This document shows positions 22 through 36,785 of a stretch of 43,327 nt of DNA, one piece after another. Positions within the stretch are counted from its first letter, which is position 1. Each line of letters opens with the position of its first letter. The stretch is from Thermoproteota archaeon (GTDB taxonomy: Archaea; Korarchaeota; Korarchaeia; Korarchaeales; Korarchaeaceae): the NCBI GenBank assembly GCA_027078475.1, contig JALWYH010000108.1, positions 1 through 43,327 on the forward strand, read 5' to 3'. Both the position numbers and the translations under genes were made by a program. Below the pieces are notes generated by a model. The model saw only the letters and a list, made by a program, of their open reading frames with translations, had not been told where the DNA came from and did not search any database.

Positions 22-768
22 CTACGTGGAGTGACGCAGCATCTCCCAGAACTGGACCGCATTCTCGAAGCTGAAGTACGAGTTGTTGAAGAGGACGTAA
101 TTATCCCTGAGGGACCATCTCCTCACCAACTCCATTAATCTCCCGAGTTCCTCAATGCTGTACCTGTAGGAGTAGATCAGCCTGTTACCCTTCCTACTCC
201 CATGCAATCGGTAGTACCTTATCTCTCCATGGACTGGTTCCTCGTAGAAGGGATCGACCACGTGGGATATTTTGAGGTCCTCTAGTAGGCCTCTAAACCT
301 AGGGCTCTCGAGCCATCCTCTTTCCCTCACTTCCCAGGCGATCCTGAATCCATCCGATATGGATGAGAAGAATTCCCTAGCGTTAGCCAGATTCACCTCG
401 TTATACCTGAAAGAGGGGGGGCTCTGAAACACAATAACTTTGGCCCCCAGCTCCCTCATCAGGGGCTTGAATCTCTCCCAGAGCTCAAAATTCTGCCTGC
501 TGGGCCTGAGAAGACCATACGACTCATCCTTGGGAAGCCCGGTCTTGGTCCAGATGCCACTCTTTGGGTCATGGGTGAAAGCCATCCAGGCCTTGACCGT
601 AAACTCGAAATCATCAGGAGCCTCCTCGCGCCACCTCCTCATAGTTTCTATCCTGGGAGGCCTGTAAAACGTCTTCTGAACCTCCACCAACTTTAGCTTC
701 TCAAAATATCTCCTTCTAGACACCTGAAAACCACAGCAGCCGACCTTCACGGTAACAGGTACCCCCAT
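22..768 (-). CDS. DUF72 (YecE-like) family protein
   Basis: A 248-residue protein of the DUF72 family, a TIM-barrel-like family with no settled biochemical role. Visible family marks are the N-terminal VGCCGF (residues 9-14, normally VGTSGW), the strand FQSPPSF (114-120), the AWEVRERGW segment (144-152), RLHG (187-190) and the late YVLFNN (224-229). Length is normal for the family. The start at 768 overlaps the last 22 bases of the upstream RuBisCO-like gene on the same strand, so the two are probably co-transcribed and translationally coupled. The second Cys in VGCCGF replaces the usual Ser. Family assignment is sure; function is unknown. Confidence 0.88.
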   Translation of the reverse strand: MGVPVTVKVGCCGFQVSRRRYFEKLKLVEVQKTFYRPPRIETMRRWREEAPDDFEFTVKAWMAFTHDPKSGIWTKTGLPKDESYGLLRPSRQNFELWERFKPLMRELGAKVIVFQSPPSFRYNEVNLANAREFFSSISDGFRIAWEVRERGWLESPRFRGLLEDLKISHVVDPFYEEPVHGEIRYYRLHGSRKGNRLIYSYRYSIEELGRLMELVRRWSLRDNYVLFNNSYFSFENAVQFWEMLRHST

Positions 769-1832
769 TTCTTCACCATCGCCCCCACACCCTCATCCCT
801 CCTCATGATTGATAGGGGGTTCTCTCCCCTCATAAAGGAATCTAGAACCTCCTTCATGGACTTAACTCCTTCCATTATCCCTCCAGGATGATCATAGATC
901 CCAAGATCTCCATTTAAAATCACGATCAGATCTTCTGGCACGTTGGCAATCGCAACCCCCTGGTGAGCATGGGGCGAGGTGAGCGGCATCGCCGGCGCCT
1001 CCCCCCTCCCTATAATGATATCCAGCTCCCTCACGAGCTCCAGCTCCTCTCTTCTCAGGGCCACGGGTCTCTCTATCATGTCAAAACCGCTGAATCTCAA
1101 TAACTCGTAGAGGATCTTAGTGCCTATTACCGACGAACCTGACAGGCAGTTTATCCCCCTGATCGCAAGGAAGACATCCTCCATGAGGTCTCCCACCACA
1201 TTCAATCTGTCCAAATCCCAGCAAGCGTGGGCGTAGAATGACCTGATACCCGTCGATACCGCGCGCTCCAAGTCCTCCCGAGAGGGTGGGAGTCTCATGA
1301 AGTAAAGCACCCTTCTTCCATCCTCCTCCTTCACGATCTCCATCATTTCAGCGAGTTGATGAGCCCTATCCAGATACGGAGAAGCCTCGTTATCATTCAA
1401 GTGAATCGGATCGAACCCCAAGTTGAGGCCGACATCGCACATGTCCTTGAACAGTCTCGCGTGGGCCGAGGGGTGTAGCACAACGCCCTTTCCGATGGTC
1501 GCCGCTATTCCCGGTCCCCTCAATCCCAAGTACCTGCTGAGTCCGGACTTACCTGGATTCGGCTTTCTGGCCTGCGAGATAGGGAATTCGACTCCTTCTA
1601 CCCAGCACACTCCTAGGGGGAGGTGTCCTATAAGGGATTCCACCGCATGGAGGACGACGGAAAAGAGGGGGCCCTCGCTCAGCATCTCCTCGGGTAAGGA
1701 CGCCACATATCTTCCTCTCGATATTTCCTCTACTCTCGTCCCGGATTCCAGCTCATCCTCAAATCCCTCTAGCGTGGTAATCGCTTCCAAGGATTTTCTG
1801 CACCTGAGGTCGATTATCAAGGCATTTACCAC
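747..1832 (-). CDS. Divergent RuBisCO-like protein (RLP, form IV-type) lacking the catalytic lysines
   Basis: A 361-residue protein that aligns by eye with the RuBisCO large-subunit fold along its whole length. The N-domain has YVASLPEEMLSEGPLF (42-57) followed by a helix and VEGVEFP (78-84), matching YVAYPLDLFEEGS...LEDLRIP of RuBisCO. ATIGKG (111-116) sits where TIKPK is. GLNLGFDPI (135-143) matches GLDFTKDDE, with Phe140 at the carbamylated Lys position and Pro/Ile at the next two metal-ligand positions. SPHAHQG (286-292) matches SGGIHVW, and ILNGDLGIYDHPGG (305-318) matches FGGGTLGHPWG. About 80 residues shorter than RuBisCO. It cannot be a carboxylase by known chemistry; another activity or a non-enzymatic role is inference. 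GTG start lies about 27 bases from a shared TATA box. Confidence 0.72.
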   Translation of the reverse strand: MVNALIIDLRCRKSLEAITTLEGFEDELESGTRVEEISRGRYVASLPEEMLSEGPLFSVVLHAVESLIGHLPLGVCWVEGVEFPISQARKPNPGKSGLSRYLGLRGPGIAATIGKGVVLHPSAHARLFKDMCDVGLNLGFDPIHLNDNEASPYLDRAHQLAEMMEIVKEEDGRRVLYFMRLPPSREDLERAVSTGIRSFYAHACWDLDRLNVVGDLMEDVFLAIRGINCLSGSSVIGTKILYELLRFSGFDMIERPVALRREELELVRELDIIIGRGEAPAMPLTSPHAHQGVAIANVPEDLIVILNGDLGIYDHPGGIMEGVKSMKEVLDSFMRGENPLSIMRRDEGVGAMVKKWGYLLP

Positions 1833-1883: not shown

Positions 1884-3116
1884 ATGCCCGAGGAGGTAGA
1901 TATCCCAGAGGGTGAAGGATTACTCATTAGGTCCCCCGCCTCCTTCACTCTCATAGCGGGGAGAGTGGAGGTGTGGGGCGCCGAGGTTGATGGGGCCACC
2001 ATTCCCTTAGAGGGAATCGAACTCCTAATTACGGCCTCATCTGATTCCCGGGTTCGTGTGAATGGTAGCTACTTGAGGTTGAGGGTACCAATACCCAAGT
2101 GGTGGAAGGACCTGCCAGATCTCCTGTCCGGTAAGAGAGTCCTCTTCCTAGGCAGGGTCGACTCGGGTAAAAGCTCGACCATGCTGTACACCCTGAATAA
2201 GCTCCTAAGGTCAGGCAAGGTATCCCTAATTGACTCTGACGTTGGGCAGTCAGATCTGGGCCCCCCAGGAGTGATCTCCAGCAAGGACATAGCGGAACCA
2301 GTGGTCCACACGAAGCTGCTTGAACCCGATTTCATGCACTTCGTGGGCGATAAGACCCCTAGCGGGCATTTCCTGCCCATGATCAGAGGTGTGGTCAGGG
2401 CCCTAGATGAATCCCGGGGAGACACGGTTCTGATCAATACTACTGGCTTCGTAGATGGTGGCGCGGCCAGGGCCCTCAAGAGGTCCAAGATGGAGTTCGC
2501 CGACCCGGATGTGGTGATCCTCCTAGAGAAGGAGGAGGGAGATCTGAGTCACATGGCCAAGATAGTCCCTAAGGGAGTGAAGGTTCTCAGGTACAGGTCC
2601 CCGGCCGGGAACAGGACTAAAAGCAGGGACTACAGGATGATCGCCAGGAGGGCCCTCATCAGGCGTTACCTTTCAGGAGCCTCGACAAGGAGGATCCACA
2701 CGGGGGATGTGGAGCTGGTCAACACATTCCTGATGACCGGGGTCAGAAAGGACGAATACGTTCCCTTCCTTGAGCATGTGCTGGAAACGCGGATACACTG
2801 GCTGGAAGAATCTCCTGACATGCTTGTCGCCTTAGCAGCATGGGATGTGGACAGGAGGAAGGTGGCCGCTCTATCTAATCTCCTCAATAAGGAGGTGAGG
2901 GTGGGTCCCGTCAGCGCCTACAGGGGACTTTACGTGGGACTCACAAGGGATGGGAGATGCGTCGGGGTGGGTCTTATGGAAGCCATGAATCTGAGGGAGG
3001 GCTGGGTTGATGTTCTTTCTGGGTATGAGGGGATGGTGGATGGCCTAGCGCTTGGTTACATCAGGTTTAATGCTGAGGGAGATGAGATCGGCTCCCGGGG
3101 GATGAACATCCCATGA
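1884..3116 (+). CDS. Clp1/Grc3-family polynucleotide 5'-hydroxyl kinase
   Basis: A 410-residue P-loop protein of the Clp1/Grc3 family, which phosphorylates 5'-OH ends of RNA or DNA and in eukaryotes acts in tRNA splicing and pre-rRNA processing. An N-terminal beta domain (about 1-75) precedes Walker A GRVDSGKSS (90-98). The family's LIDSDVGQSD (115-124) follows, with Asp117/Asp119 for metal and base activation, then GPPGVIS. A C-terminal beta domain fills about 290-400. Length is typical. It overlaps the next gene by ATGA. An intron-bearing tRNA 4 kb away gives a possible substrate class for such a kinase, though archaeal tRNA ligation does not strictly need it. Confidence 0.85.
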   Translation: MPEEVDIPEGEGLLIRSPASFTLIAGRVEVWGAEVDGATIPLEGIELLITASSDSRVRVNGSYLRLRVPIPKWWKDLPDLLSGKRVLFLGRVDSGKSSTMLYTLNKLLRSGKVSLIDSDVGQSDLGPPGVISSKDIAEPVVHTKLLEPDFMHFVGDKTPSGHFLPMIRGVVRALDESRGDTVLINTTGFVDGGAARALKRSKMEFADPDVVILLEKEEGDLSHMAKIVPKGVKVLRYRSPAGNRTKSRDYRMIARRALIRRYLSGASTRRIHTGDVELVNTFLMTGVRKDEYVPFLEHVLETRIHWLEESPDMLVALAAWDVDRRKVAALSNLLNKEVRVGPVSAYRGLYVGLTRDGRCVGVGLMEAMNLREGWVDVLSGYEGMVDGLALGYIRFNAEGDEIGSRGMNIP

Positions 3117-6418: not shown

Positions 6419-6492
6419 GGGGCCGTGGTCTAGCTTGGTAGGATGCCGGCCTTGGGAGCCGGAGGTCCCGGGTTCAAATCCCGGCGGCCCCA
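6419..6492 (+). tRNA. tRNA-Pro (anticodon UGG)
   Basis: A 74-base cloverleaf folds fully. The acceptor is GGGGCCG with CGGCCCC. The D stem GUCU pairs with GGAU. The anticodon stem CCGGC/GCCGG closes the loop CUUGGGA (anticodon UGG). The T arm is CCGGG-UUCAAAU-CCCGG and the discriminator is A. There is no intron, and the 3' CCA is not encoded (TTG follows), unlike the other two tRNAs in this window. Confidence 0.97.
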
Positions 6493-6698: not shown

Positions 6699-7084
6699 GG
6701 GGATTGCTGGACACGAACGTGCTGATATACGCATATTTCATTGATACCAAGAAGCACGGCATCGCTAGGAGGATCCTAAATTCTCTAGATGAATGGCTAG
6801 TACCCTACATAGTCCTAGTGGAACTGGTTTGGTTCGGTAGAGGTGCGGGCTTGGATGACAAACGGATCAGGGACATGACTCTGACCTTCCTGAGTGACAA
6901 CAGGTTCAGGCTCATCCACAACGAGCTGGAGGAGATAGTTGACTCGCTGGCAGTTGAGAACCCACTAGACTGGGAGGACGAGCTAATAATACTGATAGCC
7001 GAAAGGATGGGAGTTCCTCTAGTCACATTCGATGAGAATATGCGGGAGAAAGCCAAAAGAAGAAGCATCCAACTAATTCCCTGA
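6695..7084 (+). CDS. vapC: PIN-domain ribonuclease, VapC-like toxin
   Basis: A 129-residue PIN domain with the four acidic metal ligands in order: Asp6 in LLDTNVLIYA, Glu43 in VLVELVW, Asp95 in DWEDELI, and Asp113 in TFDENM. This is the full set expected of an active Mg-dependent RNase. VapC toxins cleave tRNA or rRNA and are held inactive by a small partner, here probably the 63-residue protein whose gene overlaps by 4 bases. The pair sits exactly between tRNA-Pro and tRNA-Met, with the stop only 6 bases from the 3' end of tRNA-Met on the other strand. Length is typical. Confidence 0.85.
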   Translation: MRGLLDTNVLIYAYFIDTKKHGIARRILNSLDEWLVPYIVLVELVWFGRGAGLDDKRIRDMTLTFLSDNRFRLIHNELEEIVDSLAVENPLDWEDELIILIAERMGVPLVTFDENMREKAKRRSIQLIP

Positions 7085-7090
7085 AGATTA

Positions 7091-7202
7091 TGGTGCCGGG
7101 GCCGGGATTTGAACCCGGGACCCCCGGATTTCCCAGCAGGAGCACCGTGGGCCCAACCCAACTTATGAGTCCGGTGCTCTAACCAGGCTGAGCTACCCCG
7201 GC
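7091..7202 (-). tRNA. tRNA-Met (anticodon CAU, elongator type) with intron
   Basis: Read leftwards from 7202: acceptor GCCGGGG with CCCCGGC, D arm GCUC/GAGC, anticodon stem CCGGA/UCCGG with loop CUCAUAA, T arm CCCGGG-UUCAAAU type, discriminator A and encoded CCA (7091-7093). A 34-base intron interrupts position 37/38. The stem lacks the three G:C pairs of an initiator, so elongator Met is likely; a CAU tRNA-Ile cannot be excluded by sequence alone. Confidence 0.93.
7130..7163 (-). other. tRNA-Met intron (34 nt) with bulge-helix-bulge
   Basis: On the minus strand, CUCA of the anticodon loop pairs with UGGG near the intron's 3' end. That leaves two 3-base bulges, UA^A and AA^A, with the cuts after the second base of each. 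This is the canonical motif cut by archaeal tRNA splicing endonuclease and gives mature loop CUCAUAA. Confidence 0.85.
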
Positions 7203-7227
7203 TCCAATGAAGTGGAGGGACAACCGC

Positions 7228-7241
7228 ACTATTAAAAATTG
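7228..7241. promoter_or_regulatory. TATA box of tRNA-Met, possibly bidirectional
   Basis: ACTATTAAAAATTG reads as TTTTTAATA on the minus strand, about 30 bases before tRNA-Met. On the plus strand the same AT core could start a transcript near 7260, where the structured non-coding stretch begins. Confidence 0.55.
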
Positions 7242-7257
7242 ACCTCATCACCCAAGT

Positions 7258-7400
7258 CCGATCAATCGGCCTCGGACAGCTAGGCAAGGCCCACGCTCGG
7301 TGTGAGCTGGGAACTCCATCTCCAGACTAGGATTCGTTGATGTTCGCTCTCCTCATCGCGTGGGCCATCTAATGTTGATCTTAAGTCATTTTTTAAGATT
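7258..7400 (+). ncRNA. Candidate structured RNA in a gene-free gap (strand uncertain)
   Basis: The 236 bases between tRNA-Met and the Yip1-like gene contain no convincing ORF but are unusually rich in inverted repeats. There is CCGAT-CA-ATCGG (7258-7269). A perfect 9-bp pair GGCCCACGC (7288-7296) / GCGTGGGCC (7358-7366) encloses 61 bases with smaller helices such as GATG...CATC. An AT-rich hairpin ATCTTAA/TTAAGAT (7378-7384, 7393-7399) follows, with Ts in its loop. This layout would fit a small structured RNA followed by a terminator. No C/D or H/ACA boxes were found. Speculative. Confidence 0.3.
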
Positions 7401-36316: not shown

Positions 36317-36694
36317 CTAATCCAGTCTATCACCCAATTTTTTAGCTATGGACTCGGCCCAGAAATATATCCTCTCGGCCAAGTCCATGGTTGCATCTAG
36401 AAACCTCTCATCCGCGTTCATCGCACCCAGCTTGTCCGATGTGATGAGGCCATACCTGAACTCGAACTCTTCCAGCTCAGGCTCACCCACAGAGGGTCTA
36501 TAAGCGTGGGGAGTCGACAGATACATCTTGAGAATGTTCTCGTTATAGTAGTTCACGCCGAGTATGTTCAGTCCGGCCCTGAAAGACAGGAGCATGGACT
36601 TCTTCACCAGTTCCAAGTACTTCCTTGTCTCACCCCTCGATCTCTCCCTCCTCGCCTCCTCAAGCAGCTCCCAGGCGGCAGTGAGATCTGTCAT
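36317..36694 (-). CDS. Hypothetical helical protein directly downstream of tRNA-Lys
   Basis: A 125-residue protein, almost all helical, not confidently recognised. AAWELLEEARRERSRGETRKYLEL and the later WAESIAKKLGD recall HEPN-like helical bundles, but no RxxxxH RNase motif is present. The longest frame runs into the tRNA. The true start is ATG 36694, preceded by a near-perfect GGAGGTGAT. The Shine-Dalgarno starts only a few bases after the tRNA's CCA, so the gene has no room for its own promoter and is probably transcribed with tRNA-Lys. It is convergent with the FtsX gene (2 bases apart). Confidence 0.7.
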   Translation of the reverse strand: MTDLTAAWELLEEARRERSRGETRKYLELVKKSMLLSFRAGLNILGVNYYNENILKMYLSTPHAYRPSVGEPELEEFEFRYGLITSDKLGAMNADERFLDATMDLAERIYFWAESIAKKLGDRLD

Positions 36695-36708
36695 CACGAT
36701 CACCTCCA

Positions 36709-36785
36709 TGGCGGGCCCGGCGGGATTTGAACCCGCGACCCCCCGGTTAAAAGCCGGGTGCTCTTCCATGCTGAGCTACGGGCCC
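36709..36785 (-). tRNA. tRNA-Lys (anticodon UUU), CCA encoded
   Basis: Read leftwards: acceptor GGGCCCG/CGGGCCC, D arm GCUC/GAGC, anticodon stem CCCGG/CCGGG with loop CUUUUAA (anticodon UUU), T arm GCGGG-UUCAAAU-CCCGC, discriminator G and an encoded CCA (36711-36709). No intron. The last A of CCA is also the A of an ATG in the downstream frame. Confidence 0.97.

Follow-up and report, generated by a model that had tools for sequence, protein, structure and literature searches.

A RuBisCO-family paralogue without catalytic residues, retained at one syntenic site in an archaeal family

RuBisCO-like proteins (RLPs) are usually treated as enzymes that retain part of the RuBisCO site, and the locus analysed here raises the question of what such a protein is when nearly nothing of that site is left, and why it is still kept. 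The window, i.e., the whole stretch of 43,327 nucleotides that was analysed, is one entire contig of an archaeal assembly of 1.71 Mb. It carries a RuBisCO-family gene (the RLP gene), an uninterrupted reading frame of 361 codons that stands at the upper end of the length range of the RLPs of the window's genus (333-361 aa); the plus strand of the same interval was also read and has no open frame. The motifs quoted in an earlier, sequence-only reading of this DNA, i.e., YVASLPEEMLSEGP, GLNLGFDPI, SPHAHQG, NGDLGIYDHPGG, and ATIGKG, are all present in the protein. The coordinates of the gene, of its relevant codons, and of its neighbours are collected in Table 1. Elsewhere in the window there are a tRNA-Pro (TGG) at 6419-6492 and a tRNA-Lys (TTT) at 36709-36785. 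Two ORFs (6805-7287 and 36317-36769) contain peptide stretches that resemble read-through of tRNA or other non-coding sequence, and of these only 36317-36769 overlaps a predicted tRNA.

Table 1. Features of the RLP locus, in window positions
Feature	Position	Strand	Remarks
RuBisCO-family paralogue (RLP gene) without catalytic residues	747..1832	minus	361 aa, GTG start
R105-G106-P107	1512..1520	minus	precedes strand 1 of the barrel; Gly106 16/16 and Arg105 14/16 in the family, 1/39 for either in the comparison sequences
G114-K115-G116	1485..1493	minus	replaces the K175-P-K177 motif
F140-D141-P142-I143	1404..1415	minus	replaces K201-D-D203-E204; carbamate and Mg ligands lost
E254-R255	1068..1073	minus	end of strand 6, where RuBisCO has H327 and an adjacent residue; Arg in 15/16 family members, 0/39 comparison sequences
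D309	906..908	minus	replaces Gly402 in the phosphate-1 loop; Asp in 16/16 family members, 0/39 comparison sequences
H315-P316	885..890	minus	retained RuBisCO scaffold motif
R335-G336-E337	822..830	minus	Arg and Glu in 16/16 family members; Arg in 0/39 and Glu in 2/39 comparison sequences
DUF72 (PF01904) gene	22..768	minus	downstream of the RLP gene; directly next same-strand gene only in the window's genus
Overlap of RLP gene end and DUF72 start	747..768		22 bp, as in the compared relatives of the genus, including L052
CLP1/GRC3-like polynucleotide kinase (PF16575) gene	1884..3116	plus	upstream, divergent; marks the syntenic site in most relatives

The RLP is a RuBisCO homologue with the RuBisCO fold. 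It had been claimed that RuBisCO landmarks run along its whole length, and this was borne out by the profile of the family, which covers positions 21-362 of 364 against the RuBisCOs of the PDB; both the single sequence and the family profile matched RuBisCOs far above chance. The window protein alone matched the NCBIfam models rubisco_III (E 2.6e-7) and MtnW (E 4e-7), its top PDB chain was 2oek (E 2.4e-8), and its score with the Pfam model RuBisCO_large (15.3 bits) is below the cut-off of 30.1 bits. At E <= 1, the profile of the 16 orthologues found 99 distinct PDB sequences, the best being 6hun (E 4.1e-42), and the 60 PDB matches listed for it were all RuBisCOs or RLPs. An AF2 model of the orthologue L026, which is of moderate confidence (mean pLDDT 64, pTM 0.71), matched the PDB in Foldseek with an E of 1.5e-14 and a TM of about 0.6, and only RuBisCOs and RLPs were found among its 50 best matches; one of these rows is titled as an allophycocyanin entry, and the chain itself is named Rubisco large subunit. 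For the window protein itself the model reached a pLDDT of 51, and the fold matches of this poor model were given no weight. Viral contigs were also scanned to deepen the alignment for structure prediction, with no matches. Sequence and fold together place the N-domain and the C-terminal barrel in the RuBisCO superfamily, and neither of the outcomes that the sequence-only reading had named as contrary to it, a different barrel family or a profile search free of RuBisCO matches, was obtained.

The active site was examined in an alignment anchored on the form I enzyme of Cupriavidus that also contained several archaeal proteins of form III and four proteins of form IV. The sequence-only reading had put Phe140 in the place of the carbamylated Lys, Pro and Ile in the places of the next ligands, and ATIGKG in the place of TIKPK, and the alignment agrees on each position (K201 -> F140, D203 -> P142, E204 -> I143, K175 -> G114, and K177 -> G116). 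It also reveals further replacements in the window protein (H294 -> I, R295 -> N, H298 -> S, H327 -> E, G403 -> L, and G381 -> H). K201, D203, H294, and H327 are absent in all 16 orthologues; the Lys is lost at K177 and K201 in every member and at K175 in 15 of the 16. There are isolated matching letters (K175 in L011, E204 in L011 and L012, and S379 or G404 in some), but no orthologue has the full set of K175, the loop 6 K334, H294, R295, H327, S379, and G403/G404, and loop 6 is shortened. In the comparison, K175, K201, D203, and E204 are retained by the form I and form III proteins and by the four of form IV, and the combination of Lys201, Asp203, and Glu204 that marks a true RuBisCO (forms I, II, and III) is missing in the RLP. 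As aligned, the Mg-carbamate, proton-transfer, and loop-6 residues and those of both phosphate-binding sites are gone in all the orthologues, apart from those isolated letters, and an acid on the phosphate loop would make the binding of a bisphosphate hardly possible. The proposal of a RuBisCO-fold lineage without the carbamylated Lys was thus supported, and the loss reaches nearly the whole active site and extends over five genera.

These replacements weigh heavily on the idea that the protein still works as a RuBisCO or as an MtnW-type enolase, which would need compensating residues and a wrong alignment. The MtnW structure 2oek is among the best PDB matches of the single sequence, and the trees do not firmly exclude a position of the RLP as sister of MtnW. 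However, the kept motifs HP, MP, and GxG anchor the alignment on both sides, and the lost lysines, the short loop 6, and the Asp in the phosphate loop all argue against such an activity, which we regard as highly improbable.

In a second alignment, the 16 family members were set against 39 comparison RuBisCO and RLP sequences. The positions that the family has in common with RuBisCO belong to the scaffold (G94, G135, R156, G195, G249, P283, H315-P316, G318, G322, and W356-G357), and those conserved in the family and rare or absent in RuBisCO are R105, G106, P142, R255, D271, N297 (16/16 family members and 9/39 comparison sequences), D309, R335, and E337. From the general topology of RuBisCO, rather than from coordinates, we take R255, N297, and D309 to lie near the mouth of the old active site, and RGP, D271, and RGE are presumably found at the barrel's other side.

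The former three residues are the core of an alternative explanation, in which the RLP is a new enzyme. R255, N297, and D309 would then do the work in a barrel mouth that has been rebuilt to act, without a metal, on a substrate that lacks phosphate or carries a different charge. Their conservation in the family and the absence of R255 and D309 from the comparison sequences (Table 1) agree with it, as do a low dN/dS and their location, by homology, close to where strands 6, 7, and 8 end, in the substrate-binding region of RuBisCO. Nevertheless, this mouth contains no conserved Lys, His, or acid cluster of the kind typical of RuBisCO-fold chemistry, the invariant positions are mostly scaffold Gly and Pro, and in the window's genus no metabolic gene of the old pathway is linked any longer. 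We consider a new enzyme a tentative second choice, and its more precise version, a RuBisCO-derived metal-free enzyme with a mouth around Arg255, Asn297, and Asp309, no Lys-carbamate/Mg site, and a substrate unrelated to sugar bisphosphates, a slightly weaker one.

With respect to its origin, the RLP family forms one clade (support 100/100) that falls in the archaeal form III grade; its near neighbours appear to be MtnW and L094, and long branches make this placement uncertain. The form III RuBisCO of the same genomes was rejected as its source (AU p 0.015, and 0.0008 when only the slow members of genus g3 were used). The sequence-only reading had brought up form IV RLPs for comparison; a grouping with all four form IV proteins that were sampled was rejected as well (AU p 0.016). 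The grouping with MtnW alone was not rejected (AU p 0.079).

L094 is the product of a second RuBisCO-type gene of the genus (412 aa; L107:4467-5708, G002:C9). It retains K175, K201, D203, E204, H294, R295, H327, and S379, and lacks T65/W66, K334, and the HP motif. A remnant of a gene of this type is found in G001 (L106:3672-3902, G001:C11), encoding 78 aa that are 70% identical and interrupted by an internal stop. There is also a group of archaeal RuBisCOs of 400-410 aa with full catalytic residues, represented by L095-L098 and similar proteins of several archaeal phyla, which score about 200 bits with the family profile versus about 140 bits for standard form III. To judge from these scores, this group may be the source grade of the RLP lineage.

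Compared with known proteins, the RLP shares with form III RuBisCO, the archaeal enzyme of the AMP pathway (TIGR03326; 1geh from Thermococcus kodakarensis and 6hun from Hyperthermus butylicus), a two-domain fold over the whole chain, the scaffold motifs GP..G, MP, HPG, HPxG, and KWG, and, in the other genera, a gene neighbourhood with ribose-1,5-bisphosphate (R15P) isomerase. It differs in its replaced active-site residues and shorter length, and it remains far below the TIGR03326 cut-off of 497 bits (the window protein scores 29.9 bits, and the highest value in the family is about 191). MtnW (2,3-diketo-5-methylthiopentyl-1-phosphate enolase, a form IV protein; 2oek and 4nas) is among the best sequence and fold matches and has a similar length, but it retains K175, K201, D203, E204, H294, S379, and the glycine loop, a set that the RLP family does not have. 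The MtnW-type profiles gave 18-29 bits against cut-offs of 409-514, with the Mg-carbamate site and the enolisation Lys absent. Other form IV RLPs (OiaX and those of Chlorobium and Rhodopseudomonas; 1tel and 2qyg) resemble the RLP in combining the RuBisCO fold with an altered active site, although the form IV proteins that were aligned (MtnW, OiaX, Bradyrhizobium, and Thiodictyon) all retain the K201-D203-E204 metal site, unlike the RLP. This motif is also absent, in the alignment, from the RLP of the Salinibacter ruber plasmid pSR67 (L060), which differs from the window protein in its 469 aa, its adjoining ASCH-domain gene, and its retained K175 and G402-G403 loop. Judging from the L060 sequence, the metal site may have been lost more than once in the RuBisCO superfamily.

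The orthologous family comprises 16 proteins from five genera of one family of heat-loving archaea, probably Korarchaeota. Within the window's genus 9 of 16 genomes have the RLP, and among the other genera 7 of 8 genomes do. Most of the loci have a common gene order, i.e., kinase, RLP, DUF72, crenactin, OGT-like, and RNA cyclase, and the RLPs of the five genera are one vertically inherited gene at one syntenic site. The kinase gene, intact in most relatives, has many stop codons in one genome of the genus (L114, G003:C35:41278-42358). A profile search of three other archaeal phyla, covering about 450 genomes, yielded nothing above 215 bits and no member of the family, and the matches that were read keep catalytic residues; family members score 345-545 bits with the family profile, but the same members trained it. 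The profile used to scan genome contigs was built on a genus-level alignment and not on all 16 proteins.

The RLP gene is under purifying selection. The pairwise dN/dS values (NG86) are 0.05-0.14 for the pairs with usable dS, many of the deeper pairs being synonymously saturated, and they are similar to those of the DUF72 and kinase neighbours and higher than that of glycerate kinase. The frame is free of stops in every genome that carries the gene, and full-length identity is 60-62% where synonymous sites are near saturation. These data have to be set against the possibility of a decaying gene without function, which could be suspected from the fast evolution of the RLP with respect to glycerate kinase and from its deletion in part of the genus. 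The intact frame and the full-length identity speak against decay and a dN/dS near 0.1 largely refutes it, so that we give this possibility very little credit.

The neighbourhood of the gene in the other four genera connects it with the AMP pathway. There, the RLP gene converges tail to tail with a gene for R15P isomerase (TIGR00511, over the cut-off) on the other strand. This isomerase gene is the sole one over the cut-off in those genomes, which also encode a form III RuBisCO over the cut-off and an AMP phosphorylase that exceeds its cut-off except in G023, where there is a contig-edge fragment. In the 16 genomes of the window's genus, including 99% complete assemblies, no form III RuBisCO, AMP phosphorylase, or R15P isomerase was found over the cut-off. 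A survey of Korarchaeia described that all genera encode either the AMP phosphorylase/R15P isomerase/RuBisCO III route or DeoC (PMC10667645); against this survey, the window's genus as sampled is without the former route. Since the RLP has been kept by selection after the loss of the pathway, it probably has another function now.

This distribution also bears on whether the RLP takes part in the AMP (pentose bisphosphate) pathway as a partner, in regulation or assembly, of either form III RuBisCO or R15P isomerase, as its position beside the sole bona fide isomerase gene, in genomes with form III RuBisCO and AMP phosphorylase, could suggest. However, the RLP is under selection in nine genomes of the window's genus that lack all three enzymes, and the RLP and isomerase genes are convergent and form no operon. 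In addition, G019 has the isomerase and form III RuBisCO and shows, in an incomplete genome, no match in the score range of the RLP family. Such a partnership may have been the ancestral role, but it cannot be the present role in the window's genus, and as a general explanation we find it unlikely.

The coupling of the RLP to DUF72 that had been proposed did not hold outside the window's genus, the only one where both genes are consecutive on one strand. In the other genera the isomerase gene lies between them or, in the two stretches of genus g3 that were read, no DUF72 gene was found beside the RLP gene. The removal of the isomerase gene made RLP and DUF72 consecutive on the same strand, and their overlap, which is always 22 bp long among the pairs of the genus that were compared by coordinates, including that of the deepest branch (L052), arose only after this loss and is thus derived. 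DUF72 was therefore rejected as an ancestral functional partner. Moreover, five genomes of the window's genus have a clean deletion of the RLP gene, with a kinase-DUF72 gap of about 138-187 bp (from match coordinates); DUF72 persists in them, and a search for RLP remnants at the empty sites found none that was convincing. The presence and absence of the RLP takes two changes when mapped on the best tree built from its two neighbour proteins, and a single change may also be compatible. The gene has thus been lost once or twice within the genus and is dispensable.

The explanation that we favour, to which we assign a probability of roughly 0.5, is that the RLP may be a pseudoenzyme that derives from an ancient RuBisCO paralogue and serves, without need of RuBP, for binding or as a scaffold. 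According to this proposal, the protein would still fold, probably as the usual RuBisCO-type dimer, and would be unable to bind RuBP or to perform enolisation. Its clade-specific residues (R255/N297/D309 and RGP/D271/RGE) would serve this binding or scaffold role, with no catalysis, and its present role would have been freed from the pentose-bisphosphate pathway. We prefer a binding or scaffold role because the invariant positions are mostly scaffold and no metabolic partner has been retained. The conserved R255, N297, and D309 keep the enzyme reading alive, and the near invariance of several family-specific charged, polar, or Gly positions, as a new active site would show, counts against a pseudoenzyme, just as the lack of a conserved partner to hold counts against a scaffold.

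Literature searches, whose coverage left subscription journals and preprints largely outside and was thus incomplete as to prior descriptions, returned no described family of this kind, and what appears to be new here is a clade of the RuBisCO superfamily without the RuBisCO site. A practical consequence concerns annotation, where profile matches alone could mislabel these RLPs as RuBisCO and so suggest a usable AMP pathway in genomes that lack it. A vertically inherited clade with nearly no RuBisCO site left, still under selection in genomes that have neither RuBisCO nor the pathway of its substrate, also offers a natural experiment on the capabilities of the RuBisCO scaffold without its chemistry.
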